Origin: an uncultured Clostridium sp.
Lineage (GTDB): Bacteria > Bacillota > Clostridia > Lachnospirales > Anaerotignaceae
Length of the DNA stretch: 18,935 nt
Assembly: GCA_947246775.1 (NCBI GenBank)
Contig: CAMXTM010000007.1
Location: forward strand, 1 to 18,935
Direction: 5' to 3'
The translations under genes were made by a program, and so were the position numbers. Positions 11,782 through 16,349 of the stretch are shown piece by piece (position 1 is the first letter of the stretch; each line of letters begins with the position of its first letter). The notes under the pieces are model-generated. The model worked only from the letters and a program-made list of their open reading frames with translations. It was not told the DNA's origin and did not search any database.

Positions 11782-12303
11782 ATGTTTTTACAGTTGATAG
11801 GAGCTTTGATTGTGGTGTTAAGTTGTACTGTAGTAGGTATTTGTTTTGGAAAGAAAATAGTATATAGAGTAGAGGAATTGGAGCAAATGCAAAGAGCAAT
11901 GATAATGTTAAAAAATGAAATAGATTATTTGGCGATATCTTTGCCAGAGGCATTGCAAGAAATTGGTGCAAAATGTAGTAATGAGATAGAAAATTTATTT
12001 TTTAAGATAGCGAAAGAAATGGAAAAAAGAGAGGGAGAAAAAGGAGAAGAAATATGGAAAAAAGCGGTTTTAGAATGGAAAGAGAAGACATATTTGGAAA
12101 AACAAGATGTTGATGCAGTAATTTGTGTTGGTTTGTCAATGGGATATTTGGATATAGAGCAACAAAGAGCAAGTATTGATTTGTTTTTAAAATATATAGA
12201 AATGACATTAGAAGAATTAAATCAAAAAAAGAAACAACAACAAAAATTATATTCTAGTATGGGAATATTGATAGGAATGTTGATTGTAGTAGTATTGTTG
12301 TAA
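11782..12303 (+). CDS. spoIIIAB: Stage III sporulation protein AB
   Basis: A 173-residue membrane protein with an N-terminal membrane span (~2-22, LQLIGALIVVLSCTVVGICF), a central helical domain (~30-145) and a C-terminal hydrophobic span (~155-173, SMGILIGMLIVVVLL). The central domain is related in fold to the GspF/PilC-type platform proteins of type II secretion, and SpoIIIAB is thought to act beside the AA ATPase at the mother-cell face of the channel. The motif RVEELEQMQRAMIMLKNEIDY, with LPEALQEIG after it, is typical of the family. The GGGAGAGG ribosome site overlaps the gap after spoIIIAA. The rest of the operon, in the standard order, makes the identification secure. Confidence 0.95.
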   Translation: MFLQLIGALIVVLSCTVVGICFGKKIVYRVEELEQMQRAMIMLKNEIDYLAISLPEALQEIGAKCSNEIENLFFKIAKEMEKREGEKGEEIWKKAVLEWKEKTYLEKQDVDAVICVGLSMGYLDIEQQRASIDLFLKYIEMTLEELNQKKKQQQKLYSSMGILIGMLIVVVLL

Positions 12304-12330
12304 GAATGAAAAAAGGAGGATAAAAAGTTT

Positions 12331-12525
12331 ATGGAGATTCATATTGTGTTTCAAATTGCAGCAGTTGGTATATTAGTTGCGGTGTTAAATCAGGTACTTG
12401 TAAGAGCAGGACGAGAGGAACAGGCTATGATGACAACATTAGCGGGGCTTGTGGTAGTACTTTTTTGGGTAATACAGTATATTAGTAGATTGTTTGATAC
12501 AGTGCAGACATTATTTCAGATATGA
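12331..12525 (+). CDS. spoIIIAC: Stage III sporulation protein AC
   Basis: A 64-residue protein made largely of two membrane spans (~5-25 and ~33-52), the normal size for SpoIIIAC, a small membrane component of the feeding-tube complex. The family-like stretch VGILVAVLNQVLVRAGREEQA leads to a second span with LAGLVVVLFWVI. Its ribosome site is AAGGAGG about 11 nt before the ATG. The last codon (ATA) and the TGA stop lie within the first copy of a 106-bp repeat, so that element supplies the end of this reading frame. The adjacent gene, spoIIIAD, is separated by 106 bp, an unusually long gap for this operon. Confidence 0.95.
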   Translation: MEIHIVFQIAAVGILVAVLNQVLVRAGREEQAMMTTLAGLVVVLFWVIQYISRLFDTVQTLFQI

Positions 12526-12625
12526 AAAACCGTTTGTATATTTGATAATCAAGCTTTTTCTGCGTTACTTTGTAATGTTAGGTCAAAGCTTTCATGAACG
12601 TTAAATATACTCACTAAAGAGGTGA
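12520..12625 (+). repeat. Structured intergenic repeat, copy A (spoIIIAC-spoIIIAD)
   Basis: A 106-nt element aligned without gaps to 14709-14814 (95 identical positions by my count). It folds into one long interrupted hairpin: P1 12536-12546 with 12600-12610 (11 bp), P2 12551-12557 with 12585-12591 (7 bp), and P3 12562-12568 with 12572-12578 (7 bp, TTT loop). Copy A has four G-T wobbles where copy B has Watson-Crick pairs. Conserved sequence extends past the stems on both sides. The left flank contains the spoIIIAC stop; the right flank holds TCACTAAAGAGGTGA, which provides the AGAGGTG ribosome site of spoIIIAD 6 nt before its ATG. No T run follows, so it does not look like a terminator. It could be an RNA processing or stability element, a translation regulator, or a MITE-like remnant. 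Confidence 0.9.
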
Positions 12626-12631
12626 ATACAT

Positions 12632-13015
12632 ATGAATATAGCACAAATTGTTGCAGTAGGATTAGTTGGAACAGTGCTTTGTATTATGATAAAAGAGCAA
12701 AGACCCGAGATAAGTCTGTTGATAGCAGTTGCGACAGGTGTTTTGATATTTATTTCTGTGTGTGACAAATTGAAAATATTGCTTTCACTTTTAGAAGAAA
12801 CAGCAGAAAAGGCAGGAGTAAGCGAGGGATATTTTGCTATTGTGTTAAAAGTAATAGGAATTGCATATTTGGCACAATTTGGTATGCAGTTGTGTATAGA
12901 TGCAGGGCAAACAAGTATTGCAGGTAAAATTGAACTGGCGGGAAAAATTATGATAATGGTAGTTTCTGCACCTGTGTTAATGTCGTTGCTAGATGTAGTA
13001 ATTAGTTTAACATAG
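12632..13015 (+). CDS. spoIIIAD: Stage III sporulation protein AD
   Basis: A 127-residue membrane protein with about four hydrophobic segments (~4-20, ~28-46, ~68-88 and ~105-125), as expected for SpoIIIAD. In related spore formers it is a polytopic partner of SpoIIIAC in the mother-cell membrane. The pattern PEISLLIAVATGVLIF, then YFAIVLKVIGIAYLAQFG and DAGQTSIAGKIELAGKIMIM, is typical of the family. Start ATG at 12632, with the ribosome site AGAGGTG located at the end of the upstream 106-bp repeat. Its translation is therefore likely to depend on that element's structure. spoIIIAE starts 11 bp after its stop. Confidence 0.95.
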   Translation: MNIAQIVAVGLVGTVLCIMIKEQRPEISLLIAVATGVLIFISVCDKLKILLSLLEETAEKAGVSEGYFAIVLKVIGIAYLAQFGMQLCIDAGQTSIAGKIELAGKIMIMVVSAPVLMSLLDVVISLT

Positions 13016-13026
13016 GGGGCATATGA

Positions 13027-14178
13027 ATGAAAAAAGTAAGTATAATGTTTGTAGTATTGTGGTATTTTGTTTTTTTTACTGTTGGAGTAAAAGCAGAACA
13101 AATAGAACTTTCTGAAGAAGATACAGAAGAAGTATTGATACAGCAAATAGAGAAATTGCCATTAGCTGATGTAGAAAAAGAAATAGAGCAGATTTGGGAA
13201 AAAAGGGAATTGCCCTCGTTTGGGGAGTGTATTAAAAAATCCATTTTAGAGGGAAGTTTTATTAATTTTGAAGAATTGTTTGGGTTGCTGATACAAAAAT
13301 TGTCTGGAGAGATTATGACACAAATTGCTGTAGTAAAGAAGATAATATTTGTAGTGTTGTTAAGTGCGATATTAAAAAATATAAATGCTTCTTTTGCTAT
13401 GAAATCGGTAGGAGAATTGGGTTTTTATGTCTGTTATATGGTGCTTATTGTTGTCATTACGGCTGCATTTTATAGTCAAACAGATATGGTTGGAAATACA
13501 ATAAGAGATGTTGAAACATTTTTTAAAGCGATGCTGCCTGTTTTTGTAACATTGTCAATGACATCAGGGGGATATGGACAAGCAACGGTTACAGCACCAG
13601 CAGTTATGGCGGGAGCAGGAATATTGACACATATTGTTTGTAATGGGATATTACCTGCTGTTGTGATGACAGCATCTCTTGAAATGATTAATCATATATC
13701 AGAAAAACCAATGTTAGAGCGTTTTACAAAATTGTTTCAGGGGGGGATATCATGGGGAATGAAAGGTATAGCGTTTTTGTTTGTGGCATTGCTTTCACTG
13801 CAAAAATTGGGAGGAAGTGTATTAAGTCGAGGTATAGGAAAGACAGCAAAAGCAGTTGTTACATCTGTTCCCGTTGTAGGTGATGTTATGGGGGGAGCAG
13901 TAGATACAGTAGGGGCATTGATAGGCATGATAAGAGGAGGAACATTGATTACTGTTGTTATATTTATGGCATTGATTTGTGCGGTACCATTGATACGTCT
14001 GTGTATTATGATATTGATATATAAATTAACAGCGGCAGTAGTAGAGCCGATTTGTGAGAGTCGGCTTGTAAAATGTATTAGTAGCGCAGGAGATTTTTCT
14101 GTATTGCTATTTGGAGCGTTGTTTTTGGTGGAAAGTATGTTTTTGTTTTCTGCTGTATTGCTGTTAACATTTTTTTAA
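13027..14178 (+). CDS. spoIIIAE: Stage III sporulation protein AE
   Basis: The largest SpoIIIA membrane protein, 383 residues. Residues 1-23 look like a signal peptide (MKKVSIMFVVLWYFVFFTVGVKA), followed by a short acidic extracytoplasmic region (~25-90) and then some seven hydrophobic spans between ~105 and 383. Family landmarks: VTLSMTSGGYGQATVTAPAV, LQKLGGSVLSRGIGKTAKAV and VVGDVMGGAVDTVGALIGMI. It is needed for the forespore-feeding complex. The chosen ATG (13027) is the second of two overlapping ATGs; the first (13023) is in another frame. The ribosome site GGGGG overlaps the spoIIIAD stop, suggesting coupling. spoIIIAF follows 20 bp later. Confidence 0.95.
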   Translation: MKKVSIMFVVLWYFVFFTVGVKAEQIELSEEDTEEVLIQQIEKLPLADVEKEIEQIWEKRELPSFGECIKKSILEGSFINFEELFGLLIQKLSGEIMTQIAVVKKIIFVVLLSAILKNINASFAMKSVGELGFYVCYMVLIVVITAAFYSQTDMVGNTIRDVETFFKAMLPVFVTLSMTSGGYGQATVTAPAVMAGAGILTHIVCNGILPAVVMTASLEMINHISEKPMLERFTKLFQGGISWGMKGIAFLFVALLSLQKLGGSVLSRGIGKTAKAVVTSVPVVGDVMGGAVDTVGALIGMIRGGTLITVVIFMALICAVPLIRLCIMILIYKLTAAVVEPICESRLVKCISSAGDFSVLLFGALFLVESMFLFSAVLLLTFF

Positions 14179-14198
14179 TAAAGAGAGGAGCAATAGGA

Positions 14199-14693
14199 AT
14201 GTTAGAGGCTTTTTCAGCATATATAAAAAACATAGCAGTATTTACATTGTTTGCTGCATTTGCGGAGCTGCTTATACCAGAGAACAATTTTAAGAAATAT
14301 CTTAGTTTTGTAATGGGAATGCTTTTGCTCACAGCGATTTTAAAGCCTATGTTTTCTATATTTCAGAGAGGAAATGATATAGAGTTGCAGACAATGCAAA
14401 AAATGGTATCTGTTTGGGCAGAAGAATATCATGTAGGAAATGGAATACAGCAACAATGGAGTGATGAAATGATATTGGATATTTATAAAAGAGAACTAGA
14501 ACAAAAATGGACAGAGGAATTAAGAGACAAATTTTACGCAAAAGAAGTTTCTGTAATAGCGGAAATTTCCGAACAAGCAGGGAAGTATGGTGAAATTATT
14601 TCTGTCAAAATTGTTGGAGGGGAAGAAAAGGGGGAGGAGATGAGAAAATATATGGAAAGTAACTATGATGTAGAAAAGATTTTAGTAGAATAA
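14199..14693 (+). CDS. spoIIIAF: Stage III sporulation protein AF
   Basis: A 164-residue protein with two N-terminal membrane spans (~8-25 and ~33-50) followed by a soluble domain (~65-164) in the intermembrane space between mother cell and forespore. In B. subtilis this domain has a ring-building-motif-like fold and joins the SpoIIIA rings. The spans carry FTLFAAFAELLIPENNFKKYLSFVMGMLLL, characteristic of SpoIIIAF. The soluble part is rich in E and K, with the core VSVIAEISEQAGKYGEIISVKIVG. The ATG has AGAGGAG 8 nt upstream. The stop lies 15 bp before the second copy of the 106-bp repeat, which separates this gene from spoIIIAG. Confidence 0.93.
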   Translation: MLEAFSAYIKNIAVFTLFAAFAELLIPENNFKKYLSFVMGMLLLTAILKPMFSIFQRGNDIELQTMQKMVSVWAEEYHVGNGIQQQWSDEMILDIYKRELEQKWTEELRDKFYAKEVSVIAEISEQAGKYGEIISVKIVGGEEKGEEMRKYMESNYDVEKILVE

Positions 14694-14708
14694 TGTTTTT
14701 TGTACTAC

Positions 14709-14814
14709 ATATGAAAAACCGTTCGTATATTTGACAATCAAGTTTTTCCTGCGTTACTTTGTAACGCTAGGTCAAAACTTTTATAAGCGTCAAATATACT
14801 CACTAAAGAGGTGA
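14709..14814 (+). repeat. Structured intergenic repeat, copy B (spoIIIAF-spoIIIAG)
   Basis: Same 106-nt element as 12520-12625, shifted by exactly 2189 bp. Stems: P1 14725-14735 with 14789-14799, P2 14740-14746 with 14774-14780, P3 14751-14757 with 14761-14767. P1 and P3 are fully Watson-Crick here. The 11 differences from copy A are all transitions. Six are at paired positions and keep pairing: four turn G-T into G-C, and two form a C-G to T-A swap in P2. The right end TCACTAAAGAGGTGA provides the ribosome site of spoIIIAG. I looked for target-site duplications and found none convincing. Confidence 0.9.
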
Positions 14815-14822
14815 TTTTTACA

Positions 14823-15392
14823 TTGGATAAAAAGAATTGGGCAAAAGAGTTATTTCGTCCAGAAAATAAAAAAGCACGAATGAATTTGTTTACAGCGTTT
14901 TTGGTAGGAGTATTGCTTTTATTGATGAATCAATTTTTTTTTAATAAACCAGAGGCAGAAATAGATGTAATACCACAAATTGAGGAACAAATGGAGCAAA
15001 AAGAAAGTAGTATAGAAAAAGAAATAGAAAAAAGATTAGAAAGTGTTTTTTCAAATATGAATGGAGTGGGGCAAGTAAAAGTAATGGTAACAATGAAAAA
15101 TACAAAAGCATCTATATTAGCGAAAGAAGAAAGGAAAGAATATGAAATTACAGAAGATGGAGAAAAAAAGAGAACACAAACACAAAAAGAAGAAAATACA
15201 GTTGTAATGTCTGAAGATAATAGAGGAACAAGAACACCAGTAGTTGTACAAGAAACCATGCCAGAAATAGAGGGAATTGTAATTGTGGCAGAGGGGGGAG
15301 ATGATGCAGTTGTAGTACAAATGTTATCAGAGGCATCGCAAGCCCTTTTTAATGTACCAGCACATAAAGTAGCAGTATTAAAAATGAAATAA
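14823..15392 (+). CDS. spoIIIAG: Stage III sporulation protein AG
   Basis: SpoIIIAG forms the large ring of the feeding-tube channel in the space between the two membranes. It has an N-terminal cytoplasmic tail, one membrane span (~22-42, NLFTAFLVGVLLLLMNQFFF) and a secreted ring-building domain with GVGQVKVMVTMKNTKASILAKE and PEIEGIVIVAEGGDDAVVVQML. The acidic/basic linker RTQTQKEENTVV sits within it. I choose TTG at 14823 (about 189 residues). The in-frame GTG at 14811 is part of the AAAGAGGTGA ribosome site, and TTG lies 8 nt after that site. The ribosome site belongs to repeat copy B. A non-ATG start could lower expression. spoIIIAH follows 13 bp later with a strong SD. Confidence 0.93.
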   Translation: MDKKNWAKELFRPENKKARMNLFTAFLVGVLLLLMNQFFFNKPEAEIDVIPQIEEQMEQKESSIEKEIEKRLESVFSNMNGVGQVKVMVTMKNTKASILAKEERKEYEITEDGEKKRTQTQKEENTVVMSEDNRGTRTPVVVQETMPEIEGIVIVAEGGDDAVVVQMLSEASQALFNVPAHKVAVLKMK

Positions 15393-16145: not shown

Positions 16146-16349
16146 TTATTTTTTTGCACTGAGTTTAATATTAACATCGGGTGGTATAGTATCTTTAATT
16201 TCTCCGTTTGCGCCCTCAAATTTTTTAATATTTTGTCTTACTAAAAAAAGAATATGGCTGTTTATAGAACGTCCCTCATAATCAGCAACAAAATTTAATT
16301 TTTTTAGCATTTCTTCCTCTATACGAATGGAAACACTTTTAACAGCCAT
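16146..16349 (-). CDS. Ribbon-helix-helix (Arc/CopG-like) DNA-binding protein
   Basis: A 67-residue small repressor-type protein. Residues ~1-45 follow the ribbon-helix-helix pattern: a short strand VKSVSIRI (3-10), helix EEEMLKKLNFVADYEG (11-26) and, after GRS, helix INSHILFLVRQNIKKFEG (29-46). The basic-hydrophobic strand would enter the major groove as a dimer. The tail to residue 67 is short and polar. The ATG has GGGGGTGG upstream. The gene faces away from the SLOG-domain gene and shares a 124-bp AT-rich region with it; autoregulation or control of that neighbour is possible. No toxin partner is seen, so an antitoxin role is not supported. It converges on spoIIIAH. Confidence 0.8.
   Translation of the reverse strand: MAVKSVSIRIEEEMLKKLNFVADYEGRSINSHILFLVRQNIKKFEGANGEIKDTIPPDVNIKLSAKK

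Follow-up and report, generated by a model that had tools for sequence, protein, structure and literature searches.

Two hairpins in the spoIIIA operon of an uncultured Clostridium are probably separate insertions of a palindromic interspersed repeat of about 120 bp

The spoIIIA operon of an uncultured Clostridium sp. (Anaerotignaceae) carries two closely similar structured elements, one between spoIIIAC and spoIIIAD (copy A) and the other between spoIIIAF and spoIIIAG (copy B). Both lie in a stretch of 18,935 nucleotides (GenBank assembly GCA_947246775.1, contig CAMXTM010000007.1; G000:C7 in our numbering), which is called the window here, holds spoIIIAA to spoIIIAH and comes from a fragmented 2.3-Mb genome (G000, 78% complete). 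We consider it probable that the two copies arose by separate insertion of an interspersed repeat, palindromic, non-autonomous and about 120 bp long, which is intercistronic and resembles miniature inverted-repeat transposable elements (MITE) and ERIC sequences. The repeat is multicopy and dispersed, forms tandem arrays in places, occurs in host genomes and in contigs classed as viral, is absent from the orthologous sites of relatives and has covarying stems.

An initial annotation, made from the letters of the window alone, had described the two copies as a 106-nt element (12520-12625 and 14709-14814). When we aligned the two stretches, they matched without gaps at 95 of 106 positions and the 11 differences were transitions only, as that annotation had stated. 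Its common fold was also reproduced, and each copy is predicted to form one long hairpin with the stems P1, P2 and P3. Fold z-scores of −3.35 (copy A) and −5.35 (copy B) were calculated against 200 shuffled sequences with 14-15 nt added on the 5' side. At 12554/12588, a C-G pair of one copy is replaced by U-A in the other. Of the further stem sites listed before, 12546, 12576 and 12602 indeed have U-G in copy A where copy B has C-G, and so does 12578 in the fold of copy B; site 12559, which had not been listed, shows the same difference. At each differing site within the common stems, pairing is kept.

The copies are real but the 106-nt boundary was too narrow at the 5' end and too wide at the 3' end. 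On the 5' side the unit continues into a first hairpin (H1), which covers 14696-14718 in copy B and is decayed in copy A. The last 8 nt of the 106-nt stretch (AGAGGTGA) are a ribosome-binding-site sequence, which we read as lying outside the repeat, since all four element-free congeners carry AAAGAGGTGA at the start of spoIIIAG and since BLAST alignments to copies elsewhere stop variously between position 98 (CTAA) and position 106. Copy A occupies 12520..12617 of the plus strand, with P1, P2, P3, the 3' end CTCACTAA and the decayed H1, and a covariance model built from 31 copies (R1) matched it at 12507-12617 with 99.5 bits. Copy B (14696..14806, plus strand) is complete and scored 121.5 bits. 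The 5' strand of P1, for which covariation was seen, lies at 12536..12546 in copy A (GTATATTTGAT), where it pairs with 12600-12610, and at 14725..14735 in copy B (GTATATTTGAC), where it pairs with GTCAAATATAC near the 3' end. The flanking AGAGGTGA at 12618..12625 is the probable ribosome-binding site of spoIIIAD, and the one at 14807..14814 is that of spoIIIAG, which is native and present in the four repeat-free congeners. According to the predicted fold, the ribosome-binding site can pair with the 3' tail in both window copies.

From its 5' side, the unit of about 120 nt consists of a TAAGG-like edge, H1 (TTTTTCATAC-loop-GTATGAAAAA), the motif CCG(T/C)T, P1 (GTATATTTGAC / GTCAAATATAC in the window), P2, P3 with its short loop and a 3' end that reads C(A/G)CTAA in most copies. 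In the genomes G001 (4 copies), G002, G003, G004 (up to 6) and G010 (4), the repeat also occurs in tandem, with a period of about 120 nt. In a long form from G004 (loci L033, L037 and L039), the 3' strands of P2 and P1 are separated by an additional arm of about 75 nt, which by eye appears to form two hairpins. One G004 contig of 6,494 bases (L032, G004:C93) carries 15 model matches in both orientations.

A covariance-model search of the host genome and its relatives, which had been proposed earlier as a check, revealed many further copies. In G000 itself, BLAST found 8 places with copy A and 9 with copy B as query. Over the five genomes of the genus, R1 yielded 105 matches (9 in G000, 9 in G001, 20 in G002, 15 in G003 and 52 in G004), and the repeat is short, dispersed and multicopy in the manner of a MITE; G001 is assembled as one contig of 2,924,599 bases. 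Across the family, 19 of 58 genomes and 4 of 17 genera had R1 matches. A wider model (R2) matched 19 of 392 genomes of the order, each of the 19 from the same family, in a scan with stricter filters and few candidates scored per genome, from which weak matches can escape. BLAST was blind to the G003 copies (none by BLAST, 15 by covariance model), and therefore absence outside the family is no proof. A blastn search of phage and plasmid records gave no match to the repeat. Among IMG/VR contigs, 10 stretches matched the sequence pattern and, together with one locus of a metagenome-assembled genome (MAG), they contain 17 copies; the pattern scan of the genome collection gave one further MAG. Rfam had no match in the window at gathering score, and with E-values up to 10 none above gathering score covered the element in window positions 12300-14900 and in 9 loci (61,549 bases). 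A search of open-licence papers gave no description that we recognised. These results agree with the previous statement that no described family has this sequence, and the repeat family is apparently undescribed so far.

The repeat is mobile, as judged by comparison of orthologous sites, and the spoIIIA copies appear to have been gained after the split from the congeners. This conclusion is drawn because none of the four other species has an element at either spoIIIA site: in G001, G002, G003 and G004, the intervals spoIIIAC-AD and spoIIIAF-AG are short and element-free. Copy A begins in the region of the spoIIIAC stop codon, which is TGA (12523..12525, plus strand) and, from comparison with relatives, lies in the conserved ATATGAAAAACC of the repeat. 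The protein end FQI* is unchanged; the gene of the relatives ends TTTCA(G/A)ATTTAA and its product also ends FQI*. SpoIIIAF ends ILVE*, two residues short of the IEDS* or IEGS* of the relatives, and its stop codon TAA (14691..14693, plus strand) lies at the 5' edge of the repeat in the same comparison, which suggests that the repeat supplied it. Copy B shares 94% identity with a repeat copy from another contig (G000:C92) and 90% with copy A. The window pair is therefore not a local duplication, and this explanation was ruled out.

The insertion ends can be read in a ribosomal RNA (rRNA) spacer of genus g17. The empty site reads GAAATAA/ATGTAGTAACG (L096), the filled one GAAATAA-[TAAGG...CTAACC]-ATGTAATAACG (L097), and comparison of the two gives an insertion without target duplication. 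Before the 23S gene, the leaders of the seven rRNA operons of G037 (four of them read) lack that part of the query which is the element, and filled leaders were found in G042, G045, G049 (six operons by match, five read), G053 and G055; this comparison leaves out G029. G049, a single contig, has two diverged copies (about 79% alike) per locus at six rRNA operon loci, and short hairpins before 23S in G057 look decayed by eye. Transfer RNA (tRNA) genes tRNA-Thr and tRNA-Tyr stand close together without the element at 12 of 22 loci (g11, g17 and g6); four others of the 22, L235-L238, gave no tRNA-Tyr pattern match and were left out. A possible remnant of the element tail was seen by eye before tRNA-Tyr in G047. 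One of the two suggestions of the initial annotation, a MITE-like repeat whose fold has been kept, is supported by the dispersed copies, the empty orthologous sites and the covariation across copies and genera.

This covariation of the stems is strong. For 115 distinct rows among 120 aligned copies, 88.9% of the paired cells were paired (70.6% in shuffled alignments) and 739 cells were changed on both sides (231 in shuffles). The covariation score was 0.485 as opposed to 0.176 after shuffling (none of 500 shuffles reached the observed value; slid partners gave at most 0.088), and 29 of 35 pairs showed two-sided change (25.7 in shuffles, of which 3 of 500 reached 29); all these statistics refer to related copies without tree correction and to an alignment fitted to a similar structure. 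A DNA palindrome would equally produce such covariation. If selection acted on an RNA fold, single changes in stems should give G-U more often than A-C. For this wobble test, 9 copies (long inserts, gaps or truncated) and identical rows were removed, which left 106. Disjoint nearest-neighbour pairs with at least 90% identity gave 14 G-U, 15 A-C and 11 other mismatches; at 70% identity or more there were 52 G-U, 43 A-C and 62 other mismatches as well as 68 double Watson-Crick changes. Split by group, G-U and A-C amounted to 6 vs 14 in G000-G002, 33 vs 17 in G003-G004 and 8 vs 8 in the others. When we compared the predicted stability of both strands for 114 of the 120 copies, chosen by length, the sense strand was the more stable one in 23 of 114 copies and in 3 of 35 copies of the window's group. 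Among these three is copy A with its G-U pairs, on which the previous inference rested. Overall, the inference that the compensatory changes reflect selection on RNA structure is not borne out. The stem pairing is real and there is no consistent pointer to the sense RNA; a folded single DNA strand during transposition, or copying from arm to arm, explains the double changes equally well.

The orientation of the copies relative to their neighbours was tallied by hand from rough calls of open reading frames (ORFs), which covered 35 of 38 matches in G000-G002. In these three genomes, which are those of the window's species and its two nearest congeners, the downstream ORF runs in the same direction as the element in 25 of 28 clusters (within 34 nt in 20 of the 25), or at 19 of 22 sites after merging of prophage duplicates; L169, L174 and one of two in L157 deviate. 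On the ten viral contigs and the one MAG contig, all 17 copies are in sense, and 12 lie at most 17 nt from the next ORF. Fourteen loci of g7 and g17, from 8 genomes, have the element immediately in front of tRNA-Tyr, always in sense, and copies directly before 23S were found in five genomes of g17. A weak copy (34.4 bits) at L109 of G049 (2.72 Mb) lies, by eye, between an apparent 23S and 5S. Other elements precede hrcA, hydroxyethylthiazole kinase, gidB and dapH in g2 and g7. Neighbours elsewhere include rpmE/DUF1385, an SSF symporter, a MuA-MuB-like junction (L040), TnpB and genes for tape measure, portal, Mu-F-like head, scaffold and tail sheath proteins as well as a second MuB/TniB-like gene. 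Just upstream of the MuB-like genes of L040 and L127, the elements have quite different P1 arms that still pair. The leading strand of replication is G-rich. By GC skew over 20 sampled stretches, 5 of 6 loci in G001 are on the leading strand and 6 of 6 follow the direction of the downstream gene; the one locus at which replication and transcription differ holds a weak copy of 39 bits. Either transcription or replication could underlie the orientation bias. Within 34 nt downstream of a TnpB gene (L173:3347-4534; PF07282, PF01385), a repeat copy lies in sense; this arrangement is either chance or an old insertion beside the right end of the TnpB gene.

As candidates for a mobilising enzyme we considered Y1 transposases, Transposase_20 and reverse transcriptases. 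For Y1 transposases, four element-bearing genomes were without a match: G000, which is 78% complete, the one-contig genome G001, G005 and G023. Of 14 genomes from g2, g7 and g17 that bear the element, 12 had Y1 matches, as did G002-G004. Transposase_20 was absent from 6 of 10 genomes tested (G000, G001, G002, G004, G010 and G049), and RVT_1 had no match in 3 of 10, including the element-bearing G010 and G049. None of the three was present in every element-bearing genome tested, and they were rejected as common mobiliser. That the repeat is the end of an IS200-like insertion sequence (IS) was also rejected, since 20 Y1 loci (L046-L065) showed no element match. An autonomous relative with the same ends gave no match at these 20 loci, the other IS families not being searched by their ends. 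G003 has 151 Y1 transposase matches, many of them truncated or with stops, which looks like an extensive IS200-like expansion in partial decay. Each of the five genus genomes has a single match to a reverse transcriptase (PF00078) of about 490 amino acids (L284:3353-6585 in G001; G000:C254:701; G002:C1:11798; G003:C135:9297; G004:C6:89973). In G001 this gene adjoins that of a 588-residue protein without Pfam match, in which a SWIM-like C-terminal motif was seen by eye.

From these data, we propose that the repeat is moved in trans by separate machinery and that its pairing may be kept mainly since the palindrome matters as DNA, either for recognition of a folded single strand or through arm-to-arm copying during replication. 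An insertion in sense between co-transcribed genes would place a long transcribed hairpin before the next ribosome-binding site, tRNA or rRNA. Less certainly, such a hairpin would be tolerated there and may act as a processing site for an endonuclease of the RNase III type or as a hairpin that protects the 5' end. The spoIIIA copies would then be passengers gained after the species split, with the stop codon of the upstream gene seemingly taken over. Several observations weigh against this reading. The L096/L097 pair is the sole filled/empty pair that resolves both ends, the others being too diverged, and neither a mobiliser nor an autonomous version was found among the families searched. The tRNA-Tyr site is occupied in eight genomes of two genera, which could indicate function rather than drift. 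In G003-G004, the excess of G-U over A-C leans to the sense strand, and the energy asymmetry between the strands may partly reflect loop parameters. Moreover, no sense bias is seen in G003-G004, where the called downstream ORF has the direction of the element in 15 of 37 clusters (not all matches were fetched, and 6 of 43 clusters had no such ORF). In 16S leaders, the element is antisense at four loci, of which three have an Rfam 16S match. The family as a whole therefore does not share the bias.

A rival explanation is an intercistronic RNA module shared by phages and hosts, in which the hairpin is cut or bound, each downstream RNA gets a processed and protected 5' end of its own, and selection for this rather than drift explains the sense position. 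The uniform orientation of the viral and MAG copies close to ORFs for portal, head, scaffold, tape measure, tail sheath and MuB/TniB-like proteins, the loci before tRNA-Tyr and 23S, the long and nearly continuous hairpin and the paired but dissimilar P1 arms before two MuB-like genes all speak for such a module. However, the wobble and energy tests gave no consistent sense-strand signature, many relatives are element-free at the same sites, the bias fails in G003-G004 and in the 16S leaders, and a strand bias of transposition or replication would also yield it (compare the leading-strand loci of G001); we regard this explanation as doubtful, though worth keeping in mind. Somewhat less probable is a broader idea, namely that the repeat is a self-spreading operon part of the family and its phages, which would settle in sense exactly at the 5' border of the following segment of the transcript (ribosome-binding site, tRNA-Tyr or 23S) for processing or insulation and would move without target duplication by a mechanism that Y1, Transposase_20 and reverse transcriptase do not explain in every carrier. 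For a cis-regulatory RNA that serves the spoIIIA operon in sporulation, one could cite the two copies in one operon, both in sense and directly before a start codon, the G-U tolerance of copy A and the predicted pairing of the 3' tail with the ribosome-binding site. Neither copy is present in spoIIIA of the four other species of the genus and the same element precedes tRNA, rRNA, phage and unrelated genes, which makes such a regulator highly improbable; the suggestion of an intra-operon RNA element made by the initial annotation is not supported for spoIIIA, and within the genus a regulator of this operon is already contradicted.

Two further explanations concern the mode of movement. A classical DDE-type MITE like ERIC, NEMIS or RUP, whose inverted repeats are terminal and whose insertion duplicates a target of TA type, would fit the size, the palindromy, the intergenic position and the modular long variant, which recall NEMIS (about 107/155 bp) and ERIC (127 bp) as given in the excerpts of PMC2229807. 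However, P1 forms a subterminal inverted repeat, beyond which H1 lies on the 5' side, the one resolving filled/empty pair shows no target duplication and no IS with matching ends was seen at the Y1 loci, the only ones scanned, and we take this origin to be unlikely. Less probable still is an element of REPIN/IS200 type that a Y1 (HUH) transposase would mobilise by recognising the folded single strand. Such an element would account for the folded palindromes, the tandem and clustered copies, the absence of a target duplication at the resolved site and the Y1 matches in most carriers, and REPINs cluster beside RAYTs (PMC3116915, in excerpt). Against it stand the four genomes without Y1 match, the 151 Y1 matches of G003 beside only 15 element matches, the lack of an element at all 20 fetched Y1 loci, the architecture (one long hairpin plus H1 instead of two inverted REPs) and the finding, by eye, of no fixed target tetranucleotide beside the copies.

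Enterobacteria, Neisseria, pneumococcus and Rickettsia are known to carry small mobile hairpin repeats of about 100-160 bp, some of which are reported to alter the stability of messenger RNA (mRNA) (PMC2229807, in excerpt). The present repeat resembles ERIC, NEMIS and REPIN; the end repeats of classical MITEs and a REPIN transposase common to all carriers were not found. ERIC (also IRU or RU-1; 127 bp, enterobacteria) is likewise a palindromic intergenic repeat. It duplicates a TA target, whereas no such duplication is present at the one resolving site of our repeat, which also differs in sequence, host group, the extra 5' hairpin, the tandem arrays and the insertions in rRNA and tRNA operons. 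NEMIS, or Correia elements, of Neisseria are similar in length (about 105-155 bp) and in having a modular long form. They carry terminal inverted repeats at their very ends, a feature that our repeat lacks; the sequences of the two were not compared. The intercistronic RNase III sites of phage T7 are hairpins between co-transcribed genes, but the present hairpin is a mobile repeat shared with the host and its cleavage is putative. According to PMC2229807, ERIC is co-transcribed with flanking genes, with an effect on mRNA that depends on orientation, and NEMIS stem-loop transcripts have been proposed as RNase III substrates. REPIN and BIME (REP doublets with a RAYT) are also palindromic, clustered and in tandem, and REPINs are thought to be moved in trans by Y1-type RAYTs (PMC3116915, in excerpt). 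Our repeat differs from them as a single long hairpin with nested stems, in which H1 and P1-P3 are dissimilar, and by its presence in four genomes (one of them a single contig) without Y1 match. Clop-1 of C. perfringens and Clot-1 of C. tetani are clostridial intergenic repeats with a predicted common structure (PMC2267715, in excerpt), and they are likened here by description only, without comparison of sequences.

The repeat extends the ERIC/NEMIS kind of small mobile hairpin to an anaerobic clade of gut clostridia. With it, a repeat of this kind is seen in operons for rRNA and tRNA as well as in clusters of phage genes, where it is almost always in sense. Compensatory changes need not mean selection on a transcript, as the usual wobble signature is absent overall. 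The filled and empty sites in close species make the effect of the hairpin on operon expression directly testable.

Pfam matches support seven of the eight spoIIIA genes of the window (spoIIIAA, AB, AC, AD, AE, AF and AH), and spoIIIAG, which has no Pfam match, is named by position. The genes next to the copies are all on the plus strand: spoIIIAC (12331..12525, PF06686), spoIIIAD (12632..13015, PF06686, C-terminus), spoIIIAF (14199..14693, PF09581) and the reading frame of spoIIIAG (14811..15392), for which comparison with relatives suggests a TTG start near 14824. Just past spoIIIAH, a small ORF on the minus strand (16146-16349) looks ribbon-helix-helix-like by eye.

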